36,639 nucleotides of DNA, from positions 1-36,639 of the forward strand of contig JADFZT010000047.1 in NCBI GenBank assembly GCA_015232395.1. The letters run 5' to 3'. Shown here one piece after another: positions 3,072 through 27,882 of this stretch (the first letter of the stretch is position 1; each line of letters begins with the position of its first letter). This DNA comes from Magnetococcales bacterium. Lineage in GTDB: Bacteria; Pseudomonadota; Magnetococcia; Magnetococcales; JADFZT01. The notes under the pieces are model-generated. The model was not told the DNA's origin, did no database searches, and worked only from the letters and a program-made list of their open reading frames with translations. Both the position numbers and the translations under genes were made by a program.

Positions 3072-3959
3072 TCAGCCAAAAATATCAGTGGAAAGATAGC
3101 GGTCCCCCCGATCAGGGAGAATCACCGCGATGCGAGCTGATGGCTGACAGGTTTCAGCCAAGCGCATGGCAGCAGCCACTGCTCCCCCTGCAGAAAGGCC
3201 TACAAAAATCCCCTCTTCCCGGGCCAAACGGTTGGTCACATCCAGAGCTTCGTCTGTGGTGACATCCAGCACCTCATCCACTCGTTTGGGTTCAAAAATT
3301 TTCGGCAGATAGGCTGCTGGCCAACGACGGATACCCGGAATGGCCGACCCTTCCGCTGGCTGCACCCCGACAATCATGATTGAATTGTTACGCTCTTTGA
3401 GCGCCCGTGAAACCCCCATGATGGTGCCGGTAGTGCCCATGGCACTGACAAAGTGGGTCACCCGTCCGCCGGTCCCTTCCCAAAGTTCAGGCCCTGTGGT
3501 GCGGTAGTGTACCCGCCAATTGTCCGGGTTGGAAAACTGATCGAACATGATTCCCTCACCGGCCTCCACCATCTCCCGGGCGCGATCAATGGCCCCTTCC
3601 ATGCTGGCTTTGGCTGGGGTCAATTCAATATCGGCCCCATAGGCCAGCATCACGGCACGCCGCTCCACGGTCATACTCTCCGGCATCACCAGGGTGATGG
3701 GATAGCCACGCTTGGCGGCGATCATGGCCAGAGCAATGCCGGTATTGCCACTGGTCGGCTCAATGATCCGGGTGCCGGGTGCCAACACGCCACGGGATTC
3801 CGCCCCCATGAACATGCCGAGAGCAGCACGATCCTTGACCGAACCGCCGGGATTGGAGCCTTCCAGCTTGGCGAGAATTCGAACCCCATCGTAGGGGGCA
3901 GAAAGGCGGTTGAGGTCTACCAGGGGGGTATTGCCAATGACTGATTCCAAAGTTACCAT
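3072..3959 (-). CDS. cysM: Cysteine synthase B (O-acetylserine sulfhydrylase), PLP-dependent
   Basis: Makes cysteine from O-acetylserine and sulfide or thiosulfate. The 295-residue protein has the GNTPLV opening motif, the PLP-binding Lys42 in GGSVKDRA, the substrate loop PTSGNTGIALAM, and the glycine-rich phosphate-binding segment GTTGTIMGVSRAL. Length and lack of a C-terminal CBS domain fit CysM better than CysK or cystathionine synthase. An AGGG ribosome site precedes the ATG. The gene stands alone, separated from the operon behind it by ~200 bases. The CysM versus CysK substrate preference cannot be fixed from sequence reading alone. Confidence 0.92.
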   Translation of the reverse strand: MVTLESVIGNTPLVDLNRLSAPYDGVRILAKLEGSNPGGSVKDRAALGMFMGAESRGVLAPGTRIIEPTSGNTGIALAMIAAKRGYPITLVMPESMTVERRAVMLAYGADIELTPAKASMEGAIDRAREMVEAGEGIMFDQFSNPDNWRVHYRTTGPELWEGTGGRVTHFVSAMGTTGTIMGVSRALKERNNSIMIVGVQPAEGSAIPGIRRWPAAYLPKIFEPKRVDEVLDVTTDEALDVTNRLAREEGIFVGLSAGGAVAAAMRLAETCQPSARIAVILPDRGDRYLSTDIFG

Positions 3960-4155: not shown

Positions 4156-5265
4156 TCAGCATTCCAATACTTCGCTAAAGCCGTTATTGCCACTTTTTTT
4201 CATTTTTTTCAAGTCCCGATCCAGCTTCTGAAAAAGATGCGACCAATCGATAGTACGGGTATCGATATGGTTCCACAACCCGGGACGTTCGGGGCGCAGG
4301 TTGGATAGATCCTTCAAACCGTTGTGAAAATTTTTCTTACTTAAATGCTCGCTCAACACCCGCAAGGCTTCCCGGACACACTTGGTCAGCTTAAACTTGA
4401 CGATCACCTTCAGAAGGGTGGAATAGGTAAAAATAGGCGCGCCACTGCTAATACTTTCCCCATGAAGTTGCCGCACTTTCATGGAGACCAACGCCCCCAG
4501 CAAAACCAATGTACCGTGGCGGAGATTGACGCCGTTGGTGGTGCAGGTTTTTTCAAACTCGTGCTCCGAGCGACTGCAAAGCTCAGAACCCCGACGCATG
4601 AGGGAGGAATATTGATAGAGCGCTGTAGTCAGGCGGAATAAAAATTCCCGGTCGTTATAGTCATGGATGGTAAAGTCCCGAAACAGCAGGTCGTAGAGAG
4701 CTTCCAGGGGCTGACAAAAGATGCGTTCGATCTTTAGTTGGTCATACTCGAAGCGCAAATCTTCCATCACCTGCAGCTTGGAAATCGCCTCTCCCAGGCC
4801 GCTCAGGATAAATTCCCGGGGCATGCGCGATATCAACTCATGAAAAGCAAAAACCATGGCCGGCTGGCGGGATTGGACCGTGACGAAATCCTTACCTTCA
4901 TCCTCCGGCAGAGCCGAACAGCCTGAAGCAAAACCGTCGTTGGAAAGATTGGTCAGAACAACGCACAGCTCTGCATCAAAATGGGCGCACGCCACCTTGG
5001 AAAAATCGATCAGCCGTCCACCACCCAGCACCAGCAGGCTTTTAAAGGGGGTTCCCTCAAACGTCTTTTCCACCGAGGCCATATTCAGATGGCTCGACAT
5101 GAAGCGCACCGGGACATCCTGCTTGGAGAGGACCTTTTTAACGTCTGCGTAGAGGCTGTTATCCCGGACGAAACCGCTGGCAACAATCAGGTCTACCCTG
5201 CGGTCTGCCAGGATTTCCTTCAGACCTTTTTTGAATGGTCGATCGCTAAAGATCAAATCAGCCAT
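4156..5265 (-). CDS. Glycerol-1-phosphate dehydrogenase-like protein (iron-ADH fold)
   Basis: The 369-residue protein resembles the AraM/EgsA glycerol-1-phosphate dehydrogenase branch of the iron-containing alcohol dehydrogenase/dehydroquinate synthase fold. It has an NAD-binding GGGRLIDFSK (residues 81-90), LTNLSNDGFAS where family members have PTaaShDGiAS, a GLGEAISK segment, SRSEHEF with His235 and RHG with His250. The Asp metal ligand of classical members appears to be Glu159 here, so activity or metal may differ. The start at 5265 is chosen because it overlaps the upstream stop by 8 bases, a translational-coupling arrangement; an open frame further upstream to 5388 only shadows that gene. 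Last gene of the three-gene operon. Confidence 0.7.
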   Translation of the reverse strand: MADLIFSDRPFKKGLKEILADRRVDLIVASGFVRDNSLYADVKKVLSKQDVPVRFMSSHLNMASVEKTFEGTPFKSLLVLGGGRLIDFSKVACAHFDAELCVVLTNLSNDGFASGCSALPEDEGKDFVTVQSRQPAMVFAFHELISRMPREFILSGLGEAISKLQVMEDLRFEYDQLKIERIFCQPLEALYDLLFRDFTIHDYNDREFLFRLTTALYQYSSLMRRGSELCSRSEHEFEKTCTTNGVNLRHGTLVLLGALVSMKVRQLHGESISSGAPIFTYSTLLKVIVKFKLTKCVREALRVLSEHLSKKNFHNGLKDLSNLRPERPGLWNHIDTRTIDWSHLFQKLDRDLKKMKKSGNNGFSEVLEC

Positions 5266-6112
5266 TGCCACTCGCGCAAATCCGTTGGAGTCGGGAGAGA
5301 AAAGCTTCTTCCCGGCCTTTGGGCAGGGCCACCGCAGCCGGGTGCCGAAAGGGAGGCTGGGCAATGGAGCCAAAATCAACCCCCACACCTTTCAGATCCA
5401 CCACATGACAGCCCATTTTATCCAACAGCAGGGAGGAAGGCCCGATATCCCAGATGTAGACATCCTTACTCATGTAGGCAAACGTTTGCCCCTCCAAAAT
5501 ACGCTTGAGAATGTAGGTCGCCGAACGGGGATAATCCACCACCCCCACCCCCAGAGCTTCGTGGATCGCCTCCGGGCTCCGATGTTCCGGGGAGAGCAGG
5601 TCATAGAAGCTTACCGATAGATAACATTCCGGCAGCCATTCCCTGGCCGGGGTAAGGGGCTTGCCGTCTCGATCCATCACCCCTTCGCTATCGGCAAAGG
5701 CCCAGTAAAATTGATCCAGACCTGCATAAAAATTGCCACCAAAAACAAATTCACGCCCCTGCATCAGGCCGATGGAGATGGAAAATTCCCGTTTGCCTTC
5801 GAGATAGGGCTTGGTGCCGTCCAGGGGATCCACCACAAAGCGAAATTCCCCGGGGGCGGGAGGGGCCTTGTTGTTAAACTCTTCGGAGATTACCGGGATG
5901 TCGCCAAAAGCCTGTTTTAAAAAAGCCAGCAGCTCTTTTTCGGTGTGGAGATCCACTTCAGAGACCACATCGTTGGCCCGCCATGCCTCTTTGAAGCTGG
6001 CATCGGATTTTAGCTGGGCCTGAACATCCTGCTGGCGATGCAGCTGATAGGCTCCAAGCTCTGCAAGCTTGGTCGTCAGGGCATCCATCTGATCGTGGAG
6101 TCGATCAATCAT
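5258..6112 (-). CDS. Inositol-monophosphatase/CysQ-family phosphatase
   Basis: A Mg-dependent, lithium-sensitive-type phosphatase of 284 residues. Glu77-Glu78 in ISEEFN, the DPLDGTKPYL motif (Asp95, Asp98, Gly99, Thr100) and WDIGPSS with Asp222 provide the metal-binding carboxylates. Family substrates include inositol phosphates, PAP and fructose-1,6-bisphosphate. The neighbours point instead to a phospholipid head-group phosphate. Its start overlaps the phosphatidyltransferase stop by 4 bases (ATGA) and its end overlaps the next start by 8. cysM lies downstream beyond that gene, so a CysQ role in sulfur metabolism is the main alternative. Confidence 0.85.
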   Translation of the reverse strand: MIDRLHDQMDALTTKLAELGAYQLHRQQDVQAQLKSDASFKEAWRANDVVSEVDLHTEKELLAFLKQAFGDIPVISEEFNNKAPPAPGEFRFVVDPLDGTKPYLEGKREFSISIGLMQGREFVFGGNFYAGLDQFYWAFADSEGVMDRDGKPLTPAREWLPECYLSVSFYDLLSPEHRSPEAIHEALGVGVVDYPRSATYILKRILEGQTFAYMSKDVYIWDIGPSSLLLDKMGCHVVDLKGVGVDFGSIAQPPFRHPAAVALPKGREEAFLSRLQRICASGNG

Positions 6113-6831
6113 ACGCCCTTGCTCTCGGAAAAGAGGAGATCCCAGCTATTCCAAAAATAGAGGGCTGCCGAGCCCCAGACCGCGATCAGGGTCATCCAGG
6201 TGTAGATGGTTTCATAGTAAACAGCGAGTTCAATTTCCTCAGGACGCAGCCAAAAAATCACCGCGAGCACCACCAGGGCAGCCCGAAGGGTCACAGTGTG
6301 CTCGTAGGTCGCCTTGAAAATATATTTGAAAGAGAGAAGATAGACTACGATTCCCAGCAAAATCAGGGGCTGTATGGTGGCATCCACCACGTTCATCAGG
6401 TAGAGGCAGGCCAGGGGCACCGAAACCAGTTCTGCCTTGGCCTTGGCCAAAAAAGAGGCTTTGATCACTTGGTTCATGGCGGCGGCATATTGTTTGATAA
6501 AAACCACCAGCAGATCCCGGATAATGATCAGGAAAAGAAACCACAAGGAGAGGTAACCGGCATCAATCAACATGATGCACAAGGCAAAATAAGAAATATG
6601 ATCGACGATGGGATCAAAGTAGACCCCGAAGGTGGAGCCCATGTTGTAAGTGCGGGCCACCAGACCATCCACGGCGTCGAAAGCAAAAATCAAGGTAAAA
6701 GTAAGGCAGATGAGAGTGCGGGTGGTAACATCCGGCATGGCAAACCACAGGGCGAACAGGGGGAAGATCAGAACAAACCGCGAAACGGTGATCTGATTGG
6801 GTGTCAGCAGTGGTTTTTTCAGGTTTCCCAT
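6109..6831 (-). CDS. CDP-alcohol phosphatidyltransferase family protein
   Basis: An integral membrane enzyme that transfers a phosphatidyl-type group from a CDP-linked lipid to an alcohol. The full signature D-x2-D-G-x2-A-R-x8-G-x3-D-x3-D is present (Asp52, Asp55, Gly56, Ala59, Arg60, Gly69, Asp73, Asp77) and about six hydrophobic segments follow. At 240 residues it is longer than typical PgsA and has an extra C-terminal hydrophobic region. The ATG at 6831 is preferred over 6864 because of a GGGGGA ribosome site just before it. It heads the three-gene overlapping operon; the acceptor could be glycerol phosphate or inositol phosphate, which sequence alone does not decide. Confidence 0.88.
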   Translation of the reverse strand: MGNLKKPLLTPNQITVSRFVLIFPLFALWFAMPDVTTRTLICLTFTLIFAFDAVDGLVARTYNMGSTFGVYFDPIVDHISYFALCIMLIDAGYLSLWFLFLIIIRDLLVVFIKQYAAAMNQVIKASFLAKAKAELVSVPLACLYLMNVVDATIQPLILLGIVVYLLSFKYIFKATYEHTVTLRAALVVLAVIFWLRPEEIELAVYYETIYTWMTLIAVWGSAALYFWNSWDLLFSESKGV

Positions 6832-7005: not shown

Positions 7006-8409
7006 TCACTCTTTCAGCCTGGTTGTAAAGAGTTTTTTTTCTTGAAGGTTCAGGGAGTTCACCCCCATGGTTGATAAAAGCCGTTGCAAAAAGCCATGGG
7101 CGGCCAATCGTCCCAGCCCCCCATCCCGACAGGCGCGCTCCCCATAAAGCGAAACCCCATCCCCGGGCTGGTTCGGGGAAACCAAAATCACCGGCACCGG
7201 ATCACCACTGTGGCGACCCGTGGCAGAGGGGGTGGTATGATCGGCGGCTATGGCGATGCAGGCCTTGCCGGAGATCCGGACCAAAGGGGCCAAAGCCTGA
7301 TCGATCTGTTCAATGACCTTTTTTTTACCCAAGGGATGGCCATCGTGGGCAAAAAGGTCCGGCCCCTTGATGTGAAGAAATACCAGGTCGTGGGTTTTCA
7401 ATGCGACCAGGGCCATTTTGACCTTGGCCTCCAGATCGGTTTTGATCCCACCAGTAAAACGGGCATCCGTCAAAACCTTGAAACCCAGTAGCCGCCCCAG
7501 GCCAATCACGGTTCGCTCCCCTGCCACCACCGCTCCCTTGAGTCCCAGAGAACCGAGCACTCCCCTCCCCGACCAAGCCCCTCCAGCTTTGCGGGGCAGA
7601 AGGATATTGCCGGGCAAAAGCCCCTCCTCCAGCCGGCGGCGATTGATGGGATGATCCCACAACAGATCGAAGGAACGCTTCACGAACTGATTGACCGCCT
7701 CGGCGGCCTTCCAGGAGGCTTCGGTGGATTTCCCAGGTTGAGGCAGGCACGCCAACACACCAGCCCCCTCCCCCCCCGCACCGGGGTCTGCATCGGTGAT
7801 ATCGGCAGAGAGCCCCTTCCCCCTCAAAAGCATCACGGCCCGGTGGCCTGTCGCGGCTTTGATACGCACCCCGATTCCCTGCCACACCCCCATCTCCCGG
7901 TTCAGGGTTTCGGCCAGGGCGACCGTATCCGGAGGTTGGATGCGGCCCGCTCGGCGATCAATAATCCGCCAGGGGTTGCTTGAAGGCCTTTCCGTCGAAG
8001 GATCTCCCAAAGCAGGCCGGTCAGAGGACTTTTGCGCCAGGTCTTGGAGTTGGACTGTGGCAAAATTACAGCGGAGCGCCACATCCCCGGCTTGCAGTGG
8101 CCAACCGATCCCGGCTGCCTCGACCACGCCCCGGGCTGGCACTTTAGCCATGGAGGGAAAAAAGCCCATCAACTGCCCCACCCCCACATCGGTGGAGACT
8201 GCGATACCCGGCGCTATGGGATCCACAAGCCCTGTGAGGCCCTGCTCTGCCAACTGGTCCAGATGGGGGGTGAGTGCCGCTTCCAGGGGCGTTTGGCCCG
8301 CCAGTTCGGCCACGGGACGATCCCCCAAACCATCCAGTATGACCATCAATCCAGGCTGCTCTCTATTCACGGCATTCTTCCCAAAACCAGATATTGCCCC
8401 AACTCCCAC
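7006..8409 (-). CDS. apgM: 2,3-bisphosphoglycerate-independent phosphoglycerate mutase, archaeal (ApgM) type
   Basis: Interconverts 3- and 2-phosphoglycerate; alkaline-phosphatase superfamily. The 467-residue protein has LDGLGDRPV at ~25-33 (metal-ligand Asp26), TPHLDQLAEQG, GDVALRCNFATV, FLHIKGPDLFAHDGHP and ADHTTPSATGRHSGDPVPV, the last two holding the Asp/His metal ligands of the family. Aligning the conserved APGI segment by eye, the nucleophile of classical ApgM (Ser in PGSDTAH) corresponds to Thr73 in VSTDVGV. Thr is used as nucleophile elsewhere in the superfamily, so activity is possible but may be altered. The start appears to be GTG, with AGGAAGG 7 bases upstream. Confidence 0.88.
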   Translation of the reverse strand: MGVGAISGFGKNAVNREQPGLMVILDGLGDRPVAELAGQTPLEAALTPHLDQLAEQGLTGLVDPIAPGIAVSTDVGVGQLMGFFPSMAKVPARGVVEAAGIGWPLQAGDVALRCNFATVQLQDLAQKSSDRPALGDPSTERPSSNPWRIIDRRAGRIQPPDTVALAETLNREMGVWQGIGVRIKAATGHRAVMLLRGKGLSADITDADPGAGGEGAGVLACLPQPGKSTEASWKAAEAVNQFVKRSFDLLWDHPINRRRLEEGLLPGNILLPRKAGGAWSGRGVLGSLGLKGAVVAGERTVIGLGRLLGFKVLTDARFTGGIKTDLEAKVKMALVALKTHDLVFLHIKGPDLFAHDGHPLGKKKVIEQIDQALAPLVRISGKACIAIAADHTTPSATGRHSGDPVPVILVSPNQPGDGVSLYGERACRDGGLGRLAAHGFLQRLLSTMGVNSLNLQEKKLFTTRLKE

Positions 8410-20712: not shown

Positions 20713-20790
20713 GGCCCGACTCATTCCCATCTGGATATGAGCGGTTCCCAATCAAGCATTCAACGCTTTTTAAAAAAAGACGTGACGACC

Positions 20791-23700
20791 ATGAATAAAC
20801 GACTCGGACCTGTTTTTTCCGCCCTTTTCGCCGCCTCCATCTTTGCCACCGGCCCGGTTCAGGCAGAAGCCCCGGTGGCTTCAGCGCTGGCTACCTTGGA
20901 TGGCAGCATTGTCGAATTGGTTGGCGAGGGGGATGCCGTCACACTGGACGCCTCCACCTCCACCGATATCGACGACGACATCGCCACCTATTATTGGCAA
21001 CAAACCGAAGGGAGCAGCGTCACCCTGGATGACGCCAACGCCGAAACAGCCGGCTTCACCGCTCCCACCGATCTGGGGACGGGAGAGGCACTGATCTTTT
21101 GGCTTACGGTCACCGACAACGAAGGTGACACGGACATGGACATGGTGATTGTCAATGTCTCGGATGAGAGACCCCCTCCCACTGCCGAGGCAGGCCCCAC
21201 CCAGACTGTTTCGGAAGGGGAGAGCGTCACCCTCTACGGCTCCGGCTCCCGGGATGAAAACAGCGACATAGAGAGCTACTCCTGGAACCAGATTTCCGGC
21301 CCCTCGGTAACCCTCTCCAGCTCCACCGCCGCTGACCCTACCTTCACCAGCCCCGAGCTGGAAGATGGCTCCACCTCCCTGGTGTTCCAGCTGACGGTAA
21401 CCAATGACTACGGCCTCAAATCCAACGATGAAGTAATCATCAACCTGGTCAATCTCAATCAAGCCCCATCCGCCGATGCCGGAGACGACCAGAGCGCCGA
21501 TGCCGGGGACACCGTCACCTTGGACGGCAGTGGCTCCAGCGACAACGAAGATGCCTCGATTACCTACGTCTGGAGTCAGACCGCAGGCACCAGCGTCACC
21601 CTGGACAGCCTCAACACAGCCTCCCCCACTTTCACCGCCCCCACCACCGATAGCGACGGCGAGGCCCTGCGCTTCAGCCTGAAAGTGTCCGACAGTGAAG
21701 GACTGTCTGACATCGACACGGTGATCGTCAACATTACCGGTGACGACCAAGTCCCCATTGCTGATGCCGGTGAAACGCAAACCGTCAACGAAGGGGAGAT
21801 CGTCACCCTGGATGGCTCAGGCTCCCTGGATGAGGAAGATCAGATCACCCTCTACAGCTGGGAGCAGACCGACGGCCCTTTCGTACTCCTGGACACGCCG
21901 GATAGCGCCACAACCACCTTCACCGCCCCCTTTATCAGCGGCTCCACCACCTCTTTTACCTTTGAGTTGGATATCACCGACGCTGCTGGTTTGTCAGACA
22001 CCGATATCGTCACAATCAACATTACCGATACCAACGAAGCCCCCATTGCCGAAGCCATGGTGCTGGATGCCAATGAGGTGATCGTTACCCAATCCGTAGC
22101 AGAAGGAACCACCATCACCCTGGATGCAGGGGCTTCCAGCGATACCGAAGGCAATGTGGCCAGCTACAGCTGGGTTCAAACCAGCGGCACCAGCGTCACC
22201 CTCTCCAGCAACTCCGAAGCCCTGGTCACCTTTGACACCCCCACCGATACCGATGACGGCGAAGCCCTCACCTTTGAGCTCACCGTAACCGACGCCGATG
22301 GGAAGAGCGATGCCCTGACGGTTTATGTCAACGTTTCCGAATCAGACGAGGCCCCCACCGCTGAAGCCGGTCCCAATCAGAGCGTCATCGAAGGCGATGC
22401 CGTCACCTTGAACGGCAGCGGCTCCCGGGATGGTGAAGGGAATATTGCCAGCTACCAGTGGACTCAGCTGGAAGGCCCCACAGCGGTCATTTCCGATACA
22501 TCCGCTGCCAGCCCCACCTTCACCGCCCCCGCAGCCGATGCCGAAATGGGAGCCATGCTGTTTCAACTGGTGGTGACCGATGAAACCGGCCTGATGGATC
22601 AGGACTGGGTGATCATCAACATCACCGACGACAACACCGCCCCCCATGCCGATGCCGGTTCCGACCAGACCGTGGCCAGCGAAACCGCTGTGACCCTCTC
22701 TGGAAGCAACTCTGGAGATGCTGACGGGGCCGTGGTTGAATTCCAATGGATTCAAATGAGCGGCCCCCTGGTGGACCTCTCCGATCCCACCGACATGGAC
22801 CCCTCCTTTGTCAGCCCCACCATCAGCGGCAACGGAGCTTCATTGACCTTCATGGTGATCGTCTCCGACAGCGACGGACTGGCCGACTATGATTCGGTCG
22901 TGGTCAATGTGACCGATGGCGATGTCTCTCCTCCCGAGGCTGATGCTGGTGCGGAGCAGAGTGTCGATGAAGGGGAGAGTGTCACCCTGAACGGCTCCAA
23001 CTCCCGAGATAACGAAGATGACGTGGTGAGCTATAGCTGGGAACAGGTCAGTGGCCAGACAGTCACCCTTTCCGATGCCACCGACGCCAAACCCACTTTT
23101 ACCGCACCCGATGTCAGCACCGACGGTGAAGTGCTCACCTTTGATCTCACAGTGACCGACAGCGACGGGCTTTCGGGAAGCGATTCGGTGTTGGTTAACG
23201 TTTCCGAGAGCAACCAAGCCCCCATTGCCATCGTAGGATCCAGCGAAACAGGAAGCAACGTTGATATCCAAACAGCTGAGGGAGGTAGCTTCGTCACCCT
23301 GAATGCCTCCCACTCATCAGATCCCGAAGGAGGTGAACTCACATTTCAGTGGATCCAAACGATGGGTGATACGGTCATTCTGGCTGACCCAACGGCCTCA
23401 CAGACCATTTTCTCTGCACCGTTAATTACCGATAGCAGCCTCTCTTTGGCCTTTTCGGTGACCGTCACCGATAGCGCCGGGCTCTCTGCCACCGGATCAT
23501 CCACCATCAATATCACCGATGGGAGCAACAACGCTCCCACCGCCTATGCCGGTAGCGATCAAGCCGCTGAAGAAGGCAGTACCGTCACCCTGGATGGCTC
23601 CGGCTCCAGCGATGAAGAGGATGGGGCCAACATCACCTATGCCTGGAGCGCTTCCCTGGCGGATGTGACCTTTTCCGATCCCGCTGCGGCCAACCCCACT

Positions 23701-26700
23701 TTTGTAGCCCCCACGATCAGTGATGAAACAGCCATCACCATCACCCTGGAAGTGACCGACACCACCGGGCTTAAAAGTGCCGATCAGATGATCGTGACTG
23801 TCTCTGACAACGGCCAAAGCGCAGGAAGCTTTACCGTGGATCTGCCGGATGACGCCCTCATCATCACCTCCGCCAGCACCGATCAGGATCCCATCGCCAT
23901 CGGCAGCCTGACCGGTGGCAGCCTGGTGAATCTGGCGACCGTGCACCAATCCACCCTGACCACCGATACCGACAACCAACCCTCGGAGATGCCCTACGGC
24001 CTGATCGATTTTTCCATCAAGTCCACCGACGCCGAAGGGGTGGCCACCATGACCGTCTACCTCCCCTCCCCGGCCAACTCCGATATGAGCTGGTACAAGT
24101 ATAATGAAACCACCGGCTGGAGCGATTATGGAGATAATGTGGTCTTCAACGACGAACGCACAGCGGTCACCATCACCCTGACCGACGGCGGTACGGGTGA
24201 CGATGACGCCACCGTCAACGGCCTCATCGTCGATCCCTCGGGACTCGGTTCCGCCAAGGTCGCTGCTGAAGAAGCTGCCGTGGTCGCTGCGGTCACCGTG
24301 ACAGCCACCGAATCTTCCACCATCACCGATGTGGTGGCGAGCGGGGATGTGGTCACCCTGGACGCCTCCGGCTCCTCCAGCACCAACGGCGACATCACCA
24401 CCTATGCCTGGACCCAGACCGAAGGGGATAGCGTCACCCTCTCCGATTCCGCTGCAGCCATCGTCACCTTTACCGCCCCATCGGATGTGGGCACCGGCAC
24501 GGTCCTCACCTTTGAGCTGACCGTCACCGACGATACCGATGAGAGCGCCACCACCACGGTAGTGATCAATGTTTCCGAACTCACCGAAACCCCCACCGCC
24601 GAAGCAGGCCCCACCCAGACCGTGGAAGAGGGTGAGACCGTGACTCTCTACGGCTCGGGATCGTGGGATACCCAGGGCGCCATCGCAAGCTACGCCTGGA
24701 CCCAGATCGATGGCCCGGCTGTGACCCTTTCGGATGCCACCGCAGCAGAGCCCACCTTTGTCAGCCCCACCCTCACCGGCGCCAGCAGCTCGCTGACCTT
24801 CCAGTTGATGGTGACCGACAGCGACGGGCTGGTCAATTCCGATACGGTGATCATCAACGTCACCGACCTCAATCAATCCCCCAGCGCCGATGCCGGAGAG
24901 AACCAGAATGTCAATGAAGGGGATACCGTCACCCTGGACGCCAGCGCCTCCTGGGATACCGACGACACCACAGTCAGCTACTACTGGACCCAAACCTCAG
25001 GCCCGGCAGTGGTCTTGAGTGATCGCAGCGCCAGCCAGCCCACTTTCAGCGCACCAACCACCGACGACAACGGTGCCTCCTTGGGCTTCACCCTGCAGGT
25101 TTCCGACAGCGAAGGACTCTCCACCACCGATACGGTGATCATCAACGTGATTGCCAATAACCAAGCCCCCAATGCCGAAGCCGGATATGATGAGACGATT
25201 GACGAAGAGACCGTCGTCACCCTCAATGCCGCCTTCTCCTGGGATGCCGAAGCGGATATTGCCAGCTACAGCTGGGAACAAACTTCCGGCCCCTATGTCG
25301 CCATCACCAACCCCGAAAGCGCCGAGGCTTCCTTTACCACACCCGGAGTCAATAGTGCCGGCGCCTCGTTGATCTTTGAACTCACCGTCACCGATGCCGC
25401 CGGGTTGACCGACAGCGACACCATCACCATCACCGTCGCCGACACCAATGAACTCCCCGAAGCCTCGGTCACCGCCTCTACGCCCGACTACACCATTATC
25501 ACCAATACCGTAGACGAGGGAGAAGTGGTCACCCTGGATGGCTCCGGCTCTTCGGATGCCGAAGGCACCATCGTCTCCTACGCCTGGACCCAGATCGACG
25601 GCACCACGGTAACCCTCTCCAATGCAGATACTTCCATTGCCACCTTCACCGCCCCGGACAGCGTAGGAGATGGCGTCGCCCTGACCTTTGAGCTGACAGT
25701 GACCGACAGCGAAGGCGAAACCGATACCGTGACGGTTATCATCAACGTCTCCCAGGTCAACCAGGCCCCCACCGCCGAAGCCGGCCCCAGCCAATCTGTT
25801 GAAGAGGGTGAAACCATCACCTTGAATGGTGCTGGATCGTGGGATACCGAGGGAGATATCGCCAGCTACGAATGGACCCAGACCGAAGGGCCCTATGTAA
25901 TCCTTTCCGATGCCAACGACGATAGCCCCACTTTCACGGCCCCGCTCCTCACCACCAGTGATACATCGACCTCCCTCACCTTCCAGCTGGAAGTGGCGGA
26001 TGCCGATGGCCTCCTGGCCCGGGATACGGTGATCATCAATGTCACCGACCTCAATAACGCCCCCAACGCCGATGCCGGATCTGACCAGACCGTGGATGAA
26101 GCCGAAATTGTCACCCTCTCCGGTGCCAACTCCTGGGATACCGAAGAGGTGCTGACCGACTTTCACTGGACCCAGACCAGCGGGCCTTATGTGGCACTCT
26201 CCGATCGCACCGCCATGGAGCCCACCTTTACCGCACCCGACGTCACCGGCACCGGCAAATCTTTGGGCTTTACCCTGAAGGTGACTGACAGCGAAGGGTT
26301 GAGCGACACGGATACCGTGGCCATCAATGTCACCACCAGCGATGATCAAGCCCCCGTGGCCGAAGCCGGGGCCAGCCAAACCGTTGAAGAAGGGGATTCC
26401 GTCACCCTGAATGGTTCCAACTCCTGGGATGATCAAGCCGCCGTTTCGGCCTACAGCTGGGAGCAGACCAGTGGACCCTATGTGCAGCTTTCCGATGCCA
26501 CCGACGCCCGCCCCACCTTCACCGCACCCAATGTCACCGATGACGGCTCCTCTCTCATCTTTGAGCTGACGGTGACCGACAATGGTGGTTTGACCGGCAG
26601 TGATTCGGTGATCATCAACGTCACCCAAACCAACCAGGCGCCCACAGCCAGCGTGAATGAGAGCAGCATCGATGTGCAAGAGGGCTCCACCGTCGCCCTG

Positions 26701-27882
26701 GATGCCAGCGACTCCACCGACGTGGATGGCGACGACATCACCTTCGCCTGGACCCAGACCGACGGCACCACCGTCACCCTGGCCGATGCAACAGAATCCA
26801 TTACGACCTTCACAGCACCCACCATCGATGAAGACAGCGAATCCCTCTCCTTCACGGTGACAGTAACCGACAGCCAGGGGCTTGCAGCCAGCAGCACGGT
26901 GGTGGTCAATGTATCCGACACCAACACCACCCCCGAGGCCGATGCCGGGGATGATCAGAGCGCCGAAGAGGGCAGCACTGTCACCCTCGATGGCTCCGGC
27001 TCCACCGATGCCGAGGACGGCTCTGCCATCACCTACGCCTGGAGCGCTTCCTCTTCCAGTATCACCTTTTCCGATCCCACCAGCGCCACCCCCACCTTTG
27101 TCGCCCCTTCGGTGAGTGACGATGAGGAGATCACCATTACTCTGGAAGTGACCGACAGCAACGACCTGGTGGGTTCTGACATGGTGGTCATCACCGTGAC
27201 CGACAACGGCGTGGCTAAAACCGATGTCTCCGAAAATCTCCCGGATAGCGCCTATCTGATTGAATCCGCCAGTTCCGACCGCACTCCTCTGGGTATCGGT
27301 GACATCTCCGGCGGCAACATGGTGGCGTTCGATACCGTGCACCCCTCGACCCTCACCACCGACACCGCCAACCTGCCAGCGGAGATGCCTTACGGCTTGA
27401 TCGACTTTGAGATCAAGGTAACCCAGGCGGATGGTCTGGCCACCTTTACGGTCTATTTCCCTGAAGCGGTTTCCGAGGAGATGAGCTGGTGGAAGTATGA
27501 CGCGACCAGTGGCTGGAGCGAATATGACAATGTGGTCTTCAACGACGAGCGGACTGAAATGATTGTCACCTTGGTGGATGGCGGTATCGGTGACGATGAC
27601 GACACCATCAACGGCATCATCGTCGATCCGGCCGGACTGGGCACCAAGACCACCGATACCACCACCGATACGACGACGGATACCACGACGGATACCACGA
27701 CGGATACCACCACCGACACCACCAGCAGCAGCGATTCTGGCAGCTCCGACACGGTGGTGGGTTGCACCTTGAACCCCAACGCCCCTGGCAACGATCCCAT
27801 GTTGCCGATGATGGTGATTCTCTCCTCCTTCTACCTCCTACGCCGCCGGTTTGGGTTTGGCGGCATGGGAGAGGATAAGTAG
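20791..27882 (+). CDS. Giant PKD/Ig-repeat surface protein, duplicated architecture, JDVT-CTERM-type tail
   Basis: A ~2,363-residue exported protein. It has a signal peptide (MNKRLGPVFSALFAASIFA, cleavage near VQAEA). Next come two parallel blocks, each of ten ~95-residue PKD/Ig-like repeats closed by a choice-of-anchor-U-type domain (MPYGLIDF, WYKY or WWKY, VVFNDERT, DGGxGDDD, IVDPxGLG). The typical repeat reads AxADAGxxQxVxEGxxVTLxGSxS, then SWxQTSGPxVxLSDxxxxxPTFTAP, then LTFxLTVTDSxGLxxxDxVIINV. After block two there is a Thr-Asp repeat, and then a sorting tail: GCTLNP with Cys, DPMLP, a hydrophobic helix and RRR. It is strongly acidic and probably a surface adhesin or matrix protein. The ATG at 20791 gives the best signal peptide; 20737 is an upstream in-frame alternative. 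The adjacent protease gene is the likely processing partner. Confidence 0.93.
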   Translation: MNKRLGPVFSALFAASIFATGPVQAEAPVASALATLDGSIVELVGEGDAVTLDASTSTDIDDDIATYYWQQTEGSSVTLDDANAETAGFTAPTDLGTGEALIFWLTVTDNEGDTDMDMVIVNVSDERPPPTAEAGPTQTVSEGESVTLYGSGSRDENSDIESYSWNQISGPSVTLSSSTAADPTFTSPELEDGSTSLVFQLTVTNDYGLKSNDEVIINLVNLNQAPSADAGDDQSADAGDTVTLDGSGSSDNEDASITYVWSQTAGTSVTLDSLNTASPTFTAPTTDSDGEALRFSLKVSDSEGLSDIDTVIVNITGDDQVPIADAGETQTVNEGEIVTLDGSGSLDEEDQITLYSWEQTDGPFVLLDTPDSATTTFTAPFISGSTTSFTFELDITDAAGLSDTDIVTINITDTNEAPIAEAMVLDANEVIVTQSVAEGTTITLDAGASSDTEGNVASYSWVQTSGTSVTLSSNSEALVTFDTPTDTDDGEALTFELTVTDADGKSDALTVYVNVSESDEAPTAEAGPNQSVIEGDAVTLNGSGSRDGEGNIASYQWTQLEGPTAVISDTSAASPTFTAPAADAEMGAMLFQLVVTDETGLMDQDWVIINITDDNTAPHADAGSDQTVASETAVTLSGSNSGDADGAVVEFQWIQMSGPLVDLSDPTDMDPSFVSPTISGNGASLTFMVIVSDSDGLADYDSVVVNVTDGDVSPPEADAGAEQSVDEGESVTLNGSNSRDNEDDVVSYSWEQVSGQTVTLSDATDAKPTFTAPDVSTDGEVLTFDLTVTDSDGLSGSDSVLVNVSESNQAPIAIVGSSETGSNVDIQTAEGGSFVTLNASHSSDPEGGELTFQWIQTMGDTVILADPTASQTIFSAPLITDSSLSLAFSVTVTDSAGLSATGSSTINITDGSNNAPTAYAGSDQAAEEGSTVTLDGSGSSDEEDGANITYAWSASLADVTFSDPAAANPTFVAPTISDETAITITLEVTDTTGLKSADQMIVTVSDNGQSAGSFTVDLPDDALIITSASTDQDPIAIGSLTGGSLVNLATVHQSTLTTDTDNQPSEMPYGLIDFSIKSTDAEGVATMTVYLPSPANSDMSWYKYNETTGWSDYGDNVVFNDERTAVTITLTDGGTGDDDATVNGLIVDPSGLGSAKVAAEEAAVVAAVTVTATESSTITDVVASGDVVTLDASGSSSTNGDITTYAWTQTEGDSVTLSDSAAAIVTFTAPSDVGTGTVLTFELTVTDDTDESATTTVVINVSELTETPTAEAGPTQTVEEGETVTLYGSGSWDTQGAIASYAWTQIDGPAVTLSDATAAEPTFVSPTLTGASSSLTFQLMVTDSDGLVNSDTVIINVTDLNQSPSADAGENQNVNEGDTVTLDASASWDTDDTTVSYYWTQTSGPAVVLSDRSASQPTFSAPTTDDNGASLGFTLQVSDSEGLSTTDTVIINVIANNQAPNAEAGYDETIDEETVVTLNAAFSWDAEADIASYSWEQTSGPYVAITNPESAEASFTTPGVNSAGASLIFELTVTDAAGLTDSDTITITVADTNELPEASVTASTPDYTIITNTVDEGEVVTLDGSGSSDAEGTIVSYAWTQIDGTTVTLSNADTSIATFTAPDSVGDGVALTFELTVTDSEGETDTVTVIINVSQVNQAPTAEAGPSQSVEEGETITLNGAGSWDTEGDIASYEWTQTEGPYVILSDANDDSPTFTAPLLTTSDTSTSLTFQLEVADADGLLARDTVIINVTDLNNAPNADAGSDQTVDEAEIVTLSGANSWDTEEVLTDFHWTQTSGPYVALSDRTAMEPTFTAPDVTGTGKSLGFTLKVTDSEGLSDTDTVAINVTTSDDQAPVAEAGASQTVEEGDSVTLNGSNSWDDQAAVSAYSWEQTSGPYVQLSDATDARPTFTAPNVTDDGSSLIFELTVTDNGGLTGSDSVIINVTQTNQAPTASVNESSIDVQEGSTVALDASDSTDVDGDDITFAWTQTDGTTVTLADATESITTFTAPTIDEDSESLSFTVTVTDSQGLAASSTVVVNVSDTNTTPEADAGDDQSAEEGSTVTLDGSGSTDAEDGSAITYAWSASSSSITFSDPTSATPTFVAPSVSDDEEITITLEVTDSNDLVGSDMVVITVTDNGVAKTDVSENLPDSAYLIESASSDRTPLGIGDISGGNMVAFDTVHPSTLTTDTANLPAEMPYGLIDFEIKVTQADGLATFTVYFPEAVSEEMSWWKYDATSGWSEYDNVVFNDERTEMIVTLVDGGIGDDDDTINGIIVDPAGLGTKTTDTTTDTTTDTTTDTTTDTTTDTTSSSDSGSSDTVVGCTLNPNAPGNDPMLPMMVILSSFYLLRRRFGFGGMGEDK
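20872..24249 (+). repeat. Block 1: ten PKD-like repeats plus anchor-U-type domain
   Basis: About 1,126 codons. Repeats 1-10 are followed by the domain from SAGSFTVDLP to IVDPSGLG. Repeat n here is most like repeat n of block 2; for example, both second repeats carry VTLYGSGS, both fifth repeats have a longer insert before VxEG, and both tenth repeats have ITYAWSAS instead of WxQTSG. Confidence 0.85.
24250..27642 (+). repeat. Block 2: ten PKD-like repeats plus anchor-U-type domain
   Basis: About 1,131 codons, collinear with block 1 through all ten repeats and ending with the domain from SENLPDSAYL to IVDPAGLG. Copies have diverged, so the duplication is not recent. Confidence 0.85.
27643..27725 (+). 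repeat. 12-bp microsatellite encoding Thr-Thr-Asp-Thr
   Basis: A run of GATACCACGACG-type 12-bp units encodes the TDTT repeats that link the last domain to the sorting tail. Unit length is a multiple of three, so slippage changes stalk length but not frame. Confidence 0.85.
27760..27879 (+). other. C-terminal sorting tail (JDVT-CTERM type)
   Basis: The last 40 residues: GCTLNP with Cys (codon 27763-27765), NDPMLP, a hydrophobic helix of about 13 residues, then Arg-Arg-Arg and a short tail. Cys / Asp-Pro-x-Leu-Pro / helix / Arg cluster fits CTERM tails of the JDVT-CTERM kind, which are processed by a CAAX-like glutamic protease. Assignment to this subtype is from memory of the pattern. Confidence 0.7.

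Follow-up and report, generated by a model that had tools for sequence, protein, structure and literature searches.

Gene organization of the locus

The window analysed here is a 36,639-nucleotide stretch of DNA from a Magnetococcales bacterium (contig JADFZT010000047.1 of assembly GCA_015232395.1), and its source genome is 4.94 Mb in size and 99% complete. We studied a cluster of three minus-strand open reading frames (ORFs), the translations of which contain no internal stops. They encode a PgsA-like CDP-alcohol phosphatidyltransferase (CDP-AP; P0003, 6109..6831, 240 aa, PF01066), a phosphatase of the inositol monophosphatase (IMPase) family (P0002, 5258..6112, 284 aa, PF00459) and an iron-ADH-superfamily dehydrogenase resembling sn-glycerol-1-phosphate dehydrogenase (G1PDH; P0001, 4156..5265, 369 aa, PF13685 Fe-ADH_2). 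The transferase and phosphatase genes overlap by 4 bases (ATGA), and the phosphatase and dehydrogenase genes overlap by 8 bases (ATGGCTGA). All three proteins scored above the Pfam gathering cut-offs of their families, with 84.0 bits (cut-off 22) for the transferase, 83.5 bits (27) for the phosphatase and 53.7 bits (28) for the dehydrogenase. The gene kinds and the overlaps, as described in a first-pass annotation made from the sequence alone, are thus directly established. The start positions chosen there also agreed with the N termini of relatives: the dehydrogenase begins with MADLIFSD, compared to MAELIFED in its relatives, and the transferase N terminus likewise matches. Longer GTG or TTG starts are unnecessary. 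Scans for promoters and terminators returned a signal no greater than that in shuffled sequences.

Conservation of the cluster in related genomes

The conservation of the cluster was evaluated in a sample of 398 genomes of the phylum. Strong matches to P0001 (E 1e-131 or better) were present in three of them, namely the window genome and two Magnetococcales metagenome-assembled genomes (MAGs), G022 and G027, and the same three genomes carried P0003 at E 1e-20 or better. The dehydrogenase and CDP-AP genes are neighbours in 3/3 genomes, with the phosphatase gene alone between them in the window. The pair lies upstream of cysM (cysteine synthase B; 3072..3959 in the window, minus strand, over the NCBIfam CysM cut-off), a gene of the downstream context, outside the pathway, that adjoins the cluster in the two sister loci (L006 and L007) as well and marks a shared locus. 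The observed adjacency exceeds chance; the three pair-bearing genomes are related, and their co-occurrence amounts to few independent events. A further 17 genomes matched P0001 weakly (E 9e-6 to 9e-4). Among the 18 loci of these genomes, 16 carried the GldA-type G-x-(G/A)-D motif, and two (L017, L024) gave no clear reading. When genome contigs were scanned with profiles, P0001 alone gave no match and the three-protein alignment (A1) recovered just the two known MAGs. Plasmid searches with the CDP-AP and the phosphatase yielded, among the matches listed, general PgsA and IMPase relatives only.

The phosphatase behaved differently from the other two proteins. P0002 was matched at E 1e-15 in seven of the 398 genomes, with identities beyond itself of just 27-31%; the best match was 27% identical in G022, and that in G027 was 30% identical over 76 residues. 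No phosphatase orthologue was found in the 398 genomes outside the window genome, and the gene is absent from the cluster in both sister loci. The first-pass annotation had staked its reading on the three genes occurring together elsewhere. This held for the dehydrogenase and CDP-AP pair, which is kept in all three genomes. It failed for the full trio, which is known from the window genome only, with a phosphatase orthologue in 1/398 genomes and a nucleotidyltransferase replacing the phosphatase in 2/2 other loci.

The dehydrogenase

The likening of P0001 to G1PDH in the first-pass annotation agrees with the model searches, in which the best named family was G1PDH (NF002022, 60.8 bits), followed by glycerol dehydrogenase (37.6 bits), both far under their cut-offs; the relative from L007 scored 54.4 bits to the G1PDH model. 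A profile of the three dehydrogenases aligned with the solved G1PDH 5fb3 over residues 68-262. In this alignment E159, H235 and H250, proposed earlier as active-site residues, fell on the Asp, SEH and HG metal positions; they match the residues that bind the metal in solved or annotated relatives. The clade was compared in a motif table with 10 G1PDH-type rows (five annotated as sn-glycerol-1-phosphate dehydrogenase and five so labelled in this analysis), 10 GldA-type rows and AroB. The nucleotide-binding motifs GGG (as GGGR) and SxDG (as SNDG) are intact in 3/3 clade members. The Gly following SxD is common to the clade and to all ten G1PDH-type rows and occurs in none of the ten GldA rows. 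The clade also keeps the segment preceding the first His, which GldA lacks, and ends in a C-terminal RPxR, with (R/K)-(P)-x-R found in 9/10 G1PDH-type rows. We conclude that P0001 is G1PDH-like and, as judged from these motifs, a putative rather than a demonstrated G1PDH.

Several observations weigh against a G1PDH function. P0001 scored 352 bits under the G1PDH equivalog cut-off of 413. The Asp/His/His metal triad of G1PDH is replaced by Glu159/His235/His250, the metal ligand being Glu in 3/3 clade dehydrogenases and Asp in all 20 G1PDH-type and GldA-type rows. AroB carries Glu at the same position, and in AroB such Glu-containing metal sites are catalytic. In phylogenetic trees the clade had a support of 100/100 and sat on a branch of approximately 4 changes per site. 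One tree placed it close to the Streptomyces type and to GldA, and the other close to other G1PDH-type rows; AroB and one long Rubrobacter row were excluded from the second tree. Two alternative placements gave p values of 0.38-0.39 in the approximately unbiased (AU) test. The trees took 6 of the 18 weak-match loci together with hand-chosen rows from the plasmid hits, a small and non-systematic sampling. An AlphaFold model built from three sequences was too poor to interpret (mean pLDDT of 52.8). A 3-dehydroquinate-synthase-like cyclase was considered for the dehydrogenase and rejected, as the aroB model gave just 12.5 bits, in one relative, although the Glu is common to both.

The divergence of the dehydrogenase bears on an alternative in which the architecture is the same, a different phospho-ketone is reduced and the head group is another polyol instead of glycerol. 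The Asp-to-Glu change of the metal ligand, the very long branch and the C-terminal half of P0001, which is poorly matched to known relatives in the Pfam and NCBIfam models, would all suit such a substrate. The retained G1PDH-type motifs speak against it, as does the CDP-AP, the nearest relative of which is PgsA, a glycerol-phosphate enzyme. We consider this alternative rather unlikely.

The transferase

The CDP-AP signature is complete in P0003, reading D52..D55G56..A59R60...G69...D73...D77 (pattern D..DG..AR.{8}G...D...D). The nearest named model was pgsA (TIGR00560, 75.5 bits) and the nearest solved structure was PgsA 7drj. In the profile alignment, R105, K113, K130 and K132 fell on basic positions of PgsA, where K113 corresponds to an Arg. 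A CDP-AP alignment of 16 rows was built; from a set of 30 loci, duplicates and those unread by the motif were omitted, and the Streptomyces CDP-AP, which the motif did not find, stands outside it. In this alignment the R105 position is Arg in 3/3 dehydrogenase-linked copies and in 9/9 PgsA-type rows, Val or Ala in 3/3 paralogues that do not adjoin a dehydrogenase, and Ala in PssA. Two Arg residues in the acceptor pocket of phosphatidylinositol-phosphate (PIP) synthases bind the phosphate of the acceptor, according to the available excerpt of PMC4634129. The R105 pattern fits a phospho-alcohol acceptor for the dehydrogenase-linked CDP-APs; any correspondence of R105 to an Arg of the PIP synthase pocket is putative. 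The transferase named in the first-pass annotation is PgsA-like in sequence, with PgsA-type basic residues that include R105, and its role in lipid synthesis is a prediction. P0003 differs from PgsA in scoring under the pgsA cut-off of 109.1 bits and in carrying His78 in place of the Lys that follows the last signature Asp in PgsA rows, and both differences count against a PgsA-type activity. A separate canonical PgsA adjoins uvrC in the window genome (151.6 bits, over the cut-off), which leaves the trio free for another job. The dehydrogenase-linked CDP-APs of the window and the sister loci are 62-63% identical. The AlphaFold model of the CDP-AP (three sequences, mean pLDDT of 57.3) was again too poor to interpret.

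The three unlinked P0003-type paralogues lie in other surroundings. At L071:5378-8441 (G022:C332) a gene resembling 2-aminoethylphosphonate (AEP) transaminase, a nucleotidyltransferase gene and a P0003-type paralogue stand in a row, which in a phosphoenolpyruvate (PEP) mutase-bearing Magnetococcales MAG is possibly a phosphonolipid operon. At L028:1131-2917 (G000:C143) and L072:2303-8118 (G022:C283) the paralogue adjoins an N-formylglutamate-amidohydrolase-like gene, with Pfam support on one of the two; L072 additionally contains a QEGLA-type and a glutathione-synthetase-type gene.

The phosphatase and genome-wide tests of other pathways

The metal motifs of P0002 are intact (EE77-78, DPLDGT95 and WD221-222). 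The protein scored under every named IMPase equivalog of the CysQ, HisN and SuhB types, e.g., 62.1 of 228.8 bits for CysQ and 56.0 of 275.15 bits for HisN. IMPases usually act on soluble substrates, and it would be unusual for one of them to use a lipid phosphate, a further point against a role in maturing a lipid. P0002 could act on a soluble intermediate.

Enzymes of other pathways were sought genome-wide. The inositol-phosphate synthase family PF07994 was found in none of four genomes (control search positive in 5/14 known genomes), and PcrB/GGGPS (PF01884) was equally absent from the four (control positive in 7/14). PEP mutase (PF13714) was not found in the window genome and was present in G022 and G027. 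An archaeal-type or AraM/PcrB ether-lipid use of sn-glycerol-1-phosphate (G1P) was therefore disfavoured for lack of PcrB, and a phosphonate head-group route was disfavoured since the window genome has no PEP mutase. In G022, the PEP mutase matches lie in ORFs of at least 539 aa at L075:9587-14001 and L076:2836-7458 (C177 and C23), and their neighbours, assigned by eye, are phosphonopyruvate decarboxylase-like, iron-ADH- or transaminase-like and nucleotidyltransferase-like.

An inositol-type product had been named as the alternative in the first-pass annotation, and it proved weak. A phosphatidylinositol-type pathway would agree with the membership of the phosphatase in the IMPase family and with the 38.7 bits that P0003 scored to the archaetidylinositol-phosphate-synthase model. 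That score is exceeded by the one to the pgsA model, and the lack of a PF07994 synthase in the four genomes disfavours any inositol route, so that we regard such a pathway as very improbable.

The nucleotidyltransferase of the sister loci

In two of the three loci (G022 and G027; contigs L006 and L007) a nucleotidyltransferase gene lies between the dehydrogenase gene and cysM. Its nearest relative is CTP:inositol-1-phosphate cytidylyltransferase (IPCT). The window cluster lacks such a gene, and the closest relative elsewhere in the genome, on contig C105, shares 29% identity. The C105 gene (L073:5301-6788, G000:C105) encodes a 495-aa protein in which a nucleotidyltransferase domain is fused to a HAD-IIA phosphatase domain. 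In the sister loci, the presence of the nucleotidyltransferase is a hint that the donor is a CDP-alcohol, which counts against the reading favoured below.

Such a route could be of the Kennedy type: the cytidylyltransferase would make CDP-X from the dehydrogenase product, the CDP-AP would move X-phosphate to a lipid hydroxyl, and the IMPase would be an accessory protein in the window. Besides the IPCT-like gene in two of three loci, this scheme draws on the G022 paralogue of P0003 that adjoins the AEP-transaminase-like and nucleotidyltransferase genes, and on Streptomyces and Nonomuraea, which have a dehydrogenase, a nucleotidyltransferase and a CDP-AP together. It is countered by the window cluster, with no nucleotidyltransferase of its own and only the distant fusion on another contig, and by the PgsA-type Arg, which the dehydrogenase-linked CDP-APs retain and the unlinked paralogues lost. 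We judge the scheme distinctly unlikely.

A soluble phosphodiester, e.g., diglycerol phosphate, might alternatively be made by the logic of di-myo-inositol phosphate synthesis, in which CDP-X is joined to Y-phosphate and the product is then dephosphorylated. The IPCT-like gene of the sister loci, the IMPase-type phosphatase of the window and a weak match of the DIPPS-type model to P0003 (22.1 bits) are in line with it. The DIPPS score is far under the cut-off of 580, no inositol-phosphate synthase was found, and no locus of the three combines a cytidylyltransferase with a phosphatase; this explanation is improbable.

Proposed route and head-group stereochemistry

In the reading that we favour, the trio is a variant PgsA/Pgp-type head-group side branch fed by G1P, an assignment that is possible and that we make tentatively from the sequences. 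The substrate of the dehydrogenase would be dihydroxyacetone phosphate or a closely related phospho-ketone; its reduction by NAD(P)H at the Glu/His/His metal site would yield a chiral alcohol phosphate, most likely G1P. In the membrane, the CDP-AP would hold the phosphate of this acceptor by R105 and the nearby lysines, while the free primary hydroxyl of the acceptor would displace CMP from CDP-diacylglycerol. The phosphatase would act last and strip the terminal phosphate. The substrates of all three enzymes are putative.

The ordinary bacterial phosphatidylglycerol (PG) head is an sn-glycerol-1-phosphoryl group, since PgsA uses sn-glycerol-3-phosphate (G3P) as its acceptor and the phosphate at position 3 is afterwards taken off, as described in the available excerpt of PMC7086022. 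By the same reasoning, a G1P acceptor would yield PG with the mirror-image head, an sn-glycerol-3-phosphoryl group. The enzyme GlpQ cleaves sn-glycerol-3-phosphoryl ends exclusively, according to the same excerpt. The archaeal-type head-group stereochemistry proposed in the first-pass annotation is thus right in direction, as far as that excerpt goes, and the activity that it presupposes remains putative. A CDP-(sn-1)-glycerol route would, as we reason, give the ordinary head stereochemistry. If both started from G1P, the window with its phosphatase and the sister loci with their nucleotidyltransferase would therefore make opposite products, which also tells against the favoured route. Opposite products from transferases that are 62-63% identical are hard to reconcile within one account and lower our confidence. 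A stronger version, in which the trio is a dedicated mirror-image-PG operon that combines a new Glu-ligand G1PDH clade, a specialised PgsA paralogue and an IMPase-type lipid phosphatase beside the ordinary PG route, seems to us unlikely. Overall, the gene cluster is real and partly conserved, and mirror-image PG is perhaps its product; the main rivals of this reading are a different head group and a CDP-activated route.

There are reports of bacterial PG with both enantiomers of the head group, and the enzymes behind mixed lipid stereochemistry were called unclear, in the portion of PMC13400652 available. For the archaetidylglycerol synthase of archaea, the use of G1P versus G3P is described as untested in the available part of PMC9385802. 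A locus pairing G1PDH-like and PgsA-like enzymes would allow both stereochemistry questions to be tested with a handful of purified proteins. A different product would probably be an undescribed head group in Magnetococcales.

Other genes of the window

Upstream of the cluster, the minus-strand gene apgM (phosphoglycerate mutase, 7006..8409) scored 342.5 bits to TIGR00306, over the cut-off of 320. A 2381-aa ORF at 20737-27882, with approximately 20 PKD-type repeats and Ig-like domains, probably encodes a giant surface protein.

Comparison with known systems

The first-pass annotation had known of no established bacterial pathway with this exact set. The trio with an IMPase and this dehydrogenase clade was indeed not found in the literature searched, most subscription journals lying outside it, but a related kind of gene set in Streptomyces is already published: the available part of PMC13118837 remarks that araM, CDP-AP, nucleotidyltransferase and tagGH genes are syntenic. 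In Streptomyces fungicidicus (NZ_CP023408), genes for a DUF5941 protein, a phosphocholine-cytidylyltransferase-family protein, an Fe-ADH-family protein and a CDP-AP stand in a row, which continues with a glycosyltransferase and then an ABC transporter. Nonomuraea has the same gene order, as judged by ORFs and Pfam. The combination of dehydrogenase, nucleotidyltransferase and CDP-AP is therefore a gene-set kind already known. The Streptomyces cluster resembles the Magnetococcales loci in that a G1PDH-like dehydrogenase adjoins a CDP-AP, accompanied by a nucleotidyltransferase as in the two relatives of the window. It differs in that its dehydrogenase is far closer to G1PDH (230 bits), its CDP-AP is nearer to the DIPPS type (55.7 bits), and it includes a second CDP-AP domain, a glycosyltransferase and an ABC transporter, with no IMPase in the stretch examined. 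The Streptomyces DUF5941 protein (L083:7189-9006) itself holds a CDP-AP domain, and hopanoid genes lie nearby.

Compared to AraM and archaeal G1PDH, the dehydrogenase shares its best named family, the GGG and SxDG motifs, the SEH and HG metal residues and the C-terminal RPxR, but it reaches 60.8 of 413 bits, has Glu for the metal Asp and belongs to a genome without a PcrB/GGGPS partner. The di-myo-inositol phosphate system (IPCT/DIPPS) is similar in its kind of cytidylyltransferase (sister loci), its CDP-AP and an IMPase-family phosphatase (window); in the Magnetococcales loci, however, a dehydrogenase takes the place of inositol-phosphate synthase and the CDP-AP is nearer to PgsA. With the bacterial PgsA and Pgp route the trio shares a CDP-AP nearest to PgsA, Arg and Lys at PgsA positions and a phosphatase gene that follows. 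Unlike that route, its CDP-AP falls under the pgsA cut-off and has H78 for Lys, its phosphatase is of the IMPase type rather than PgpA/B/C, a dehydrogenase is attached, and a separate PgsA is present in the genome.

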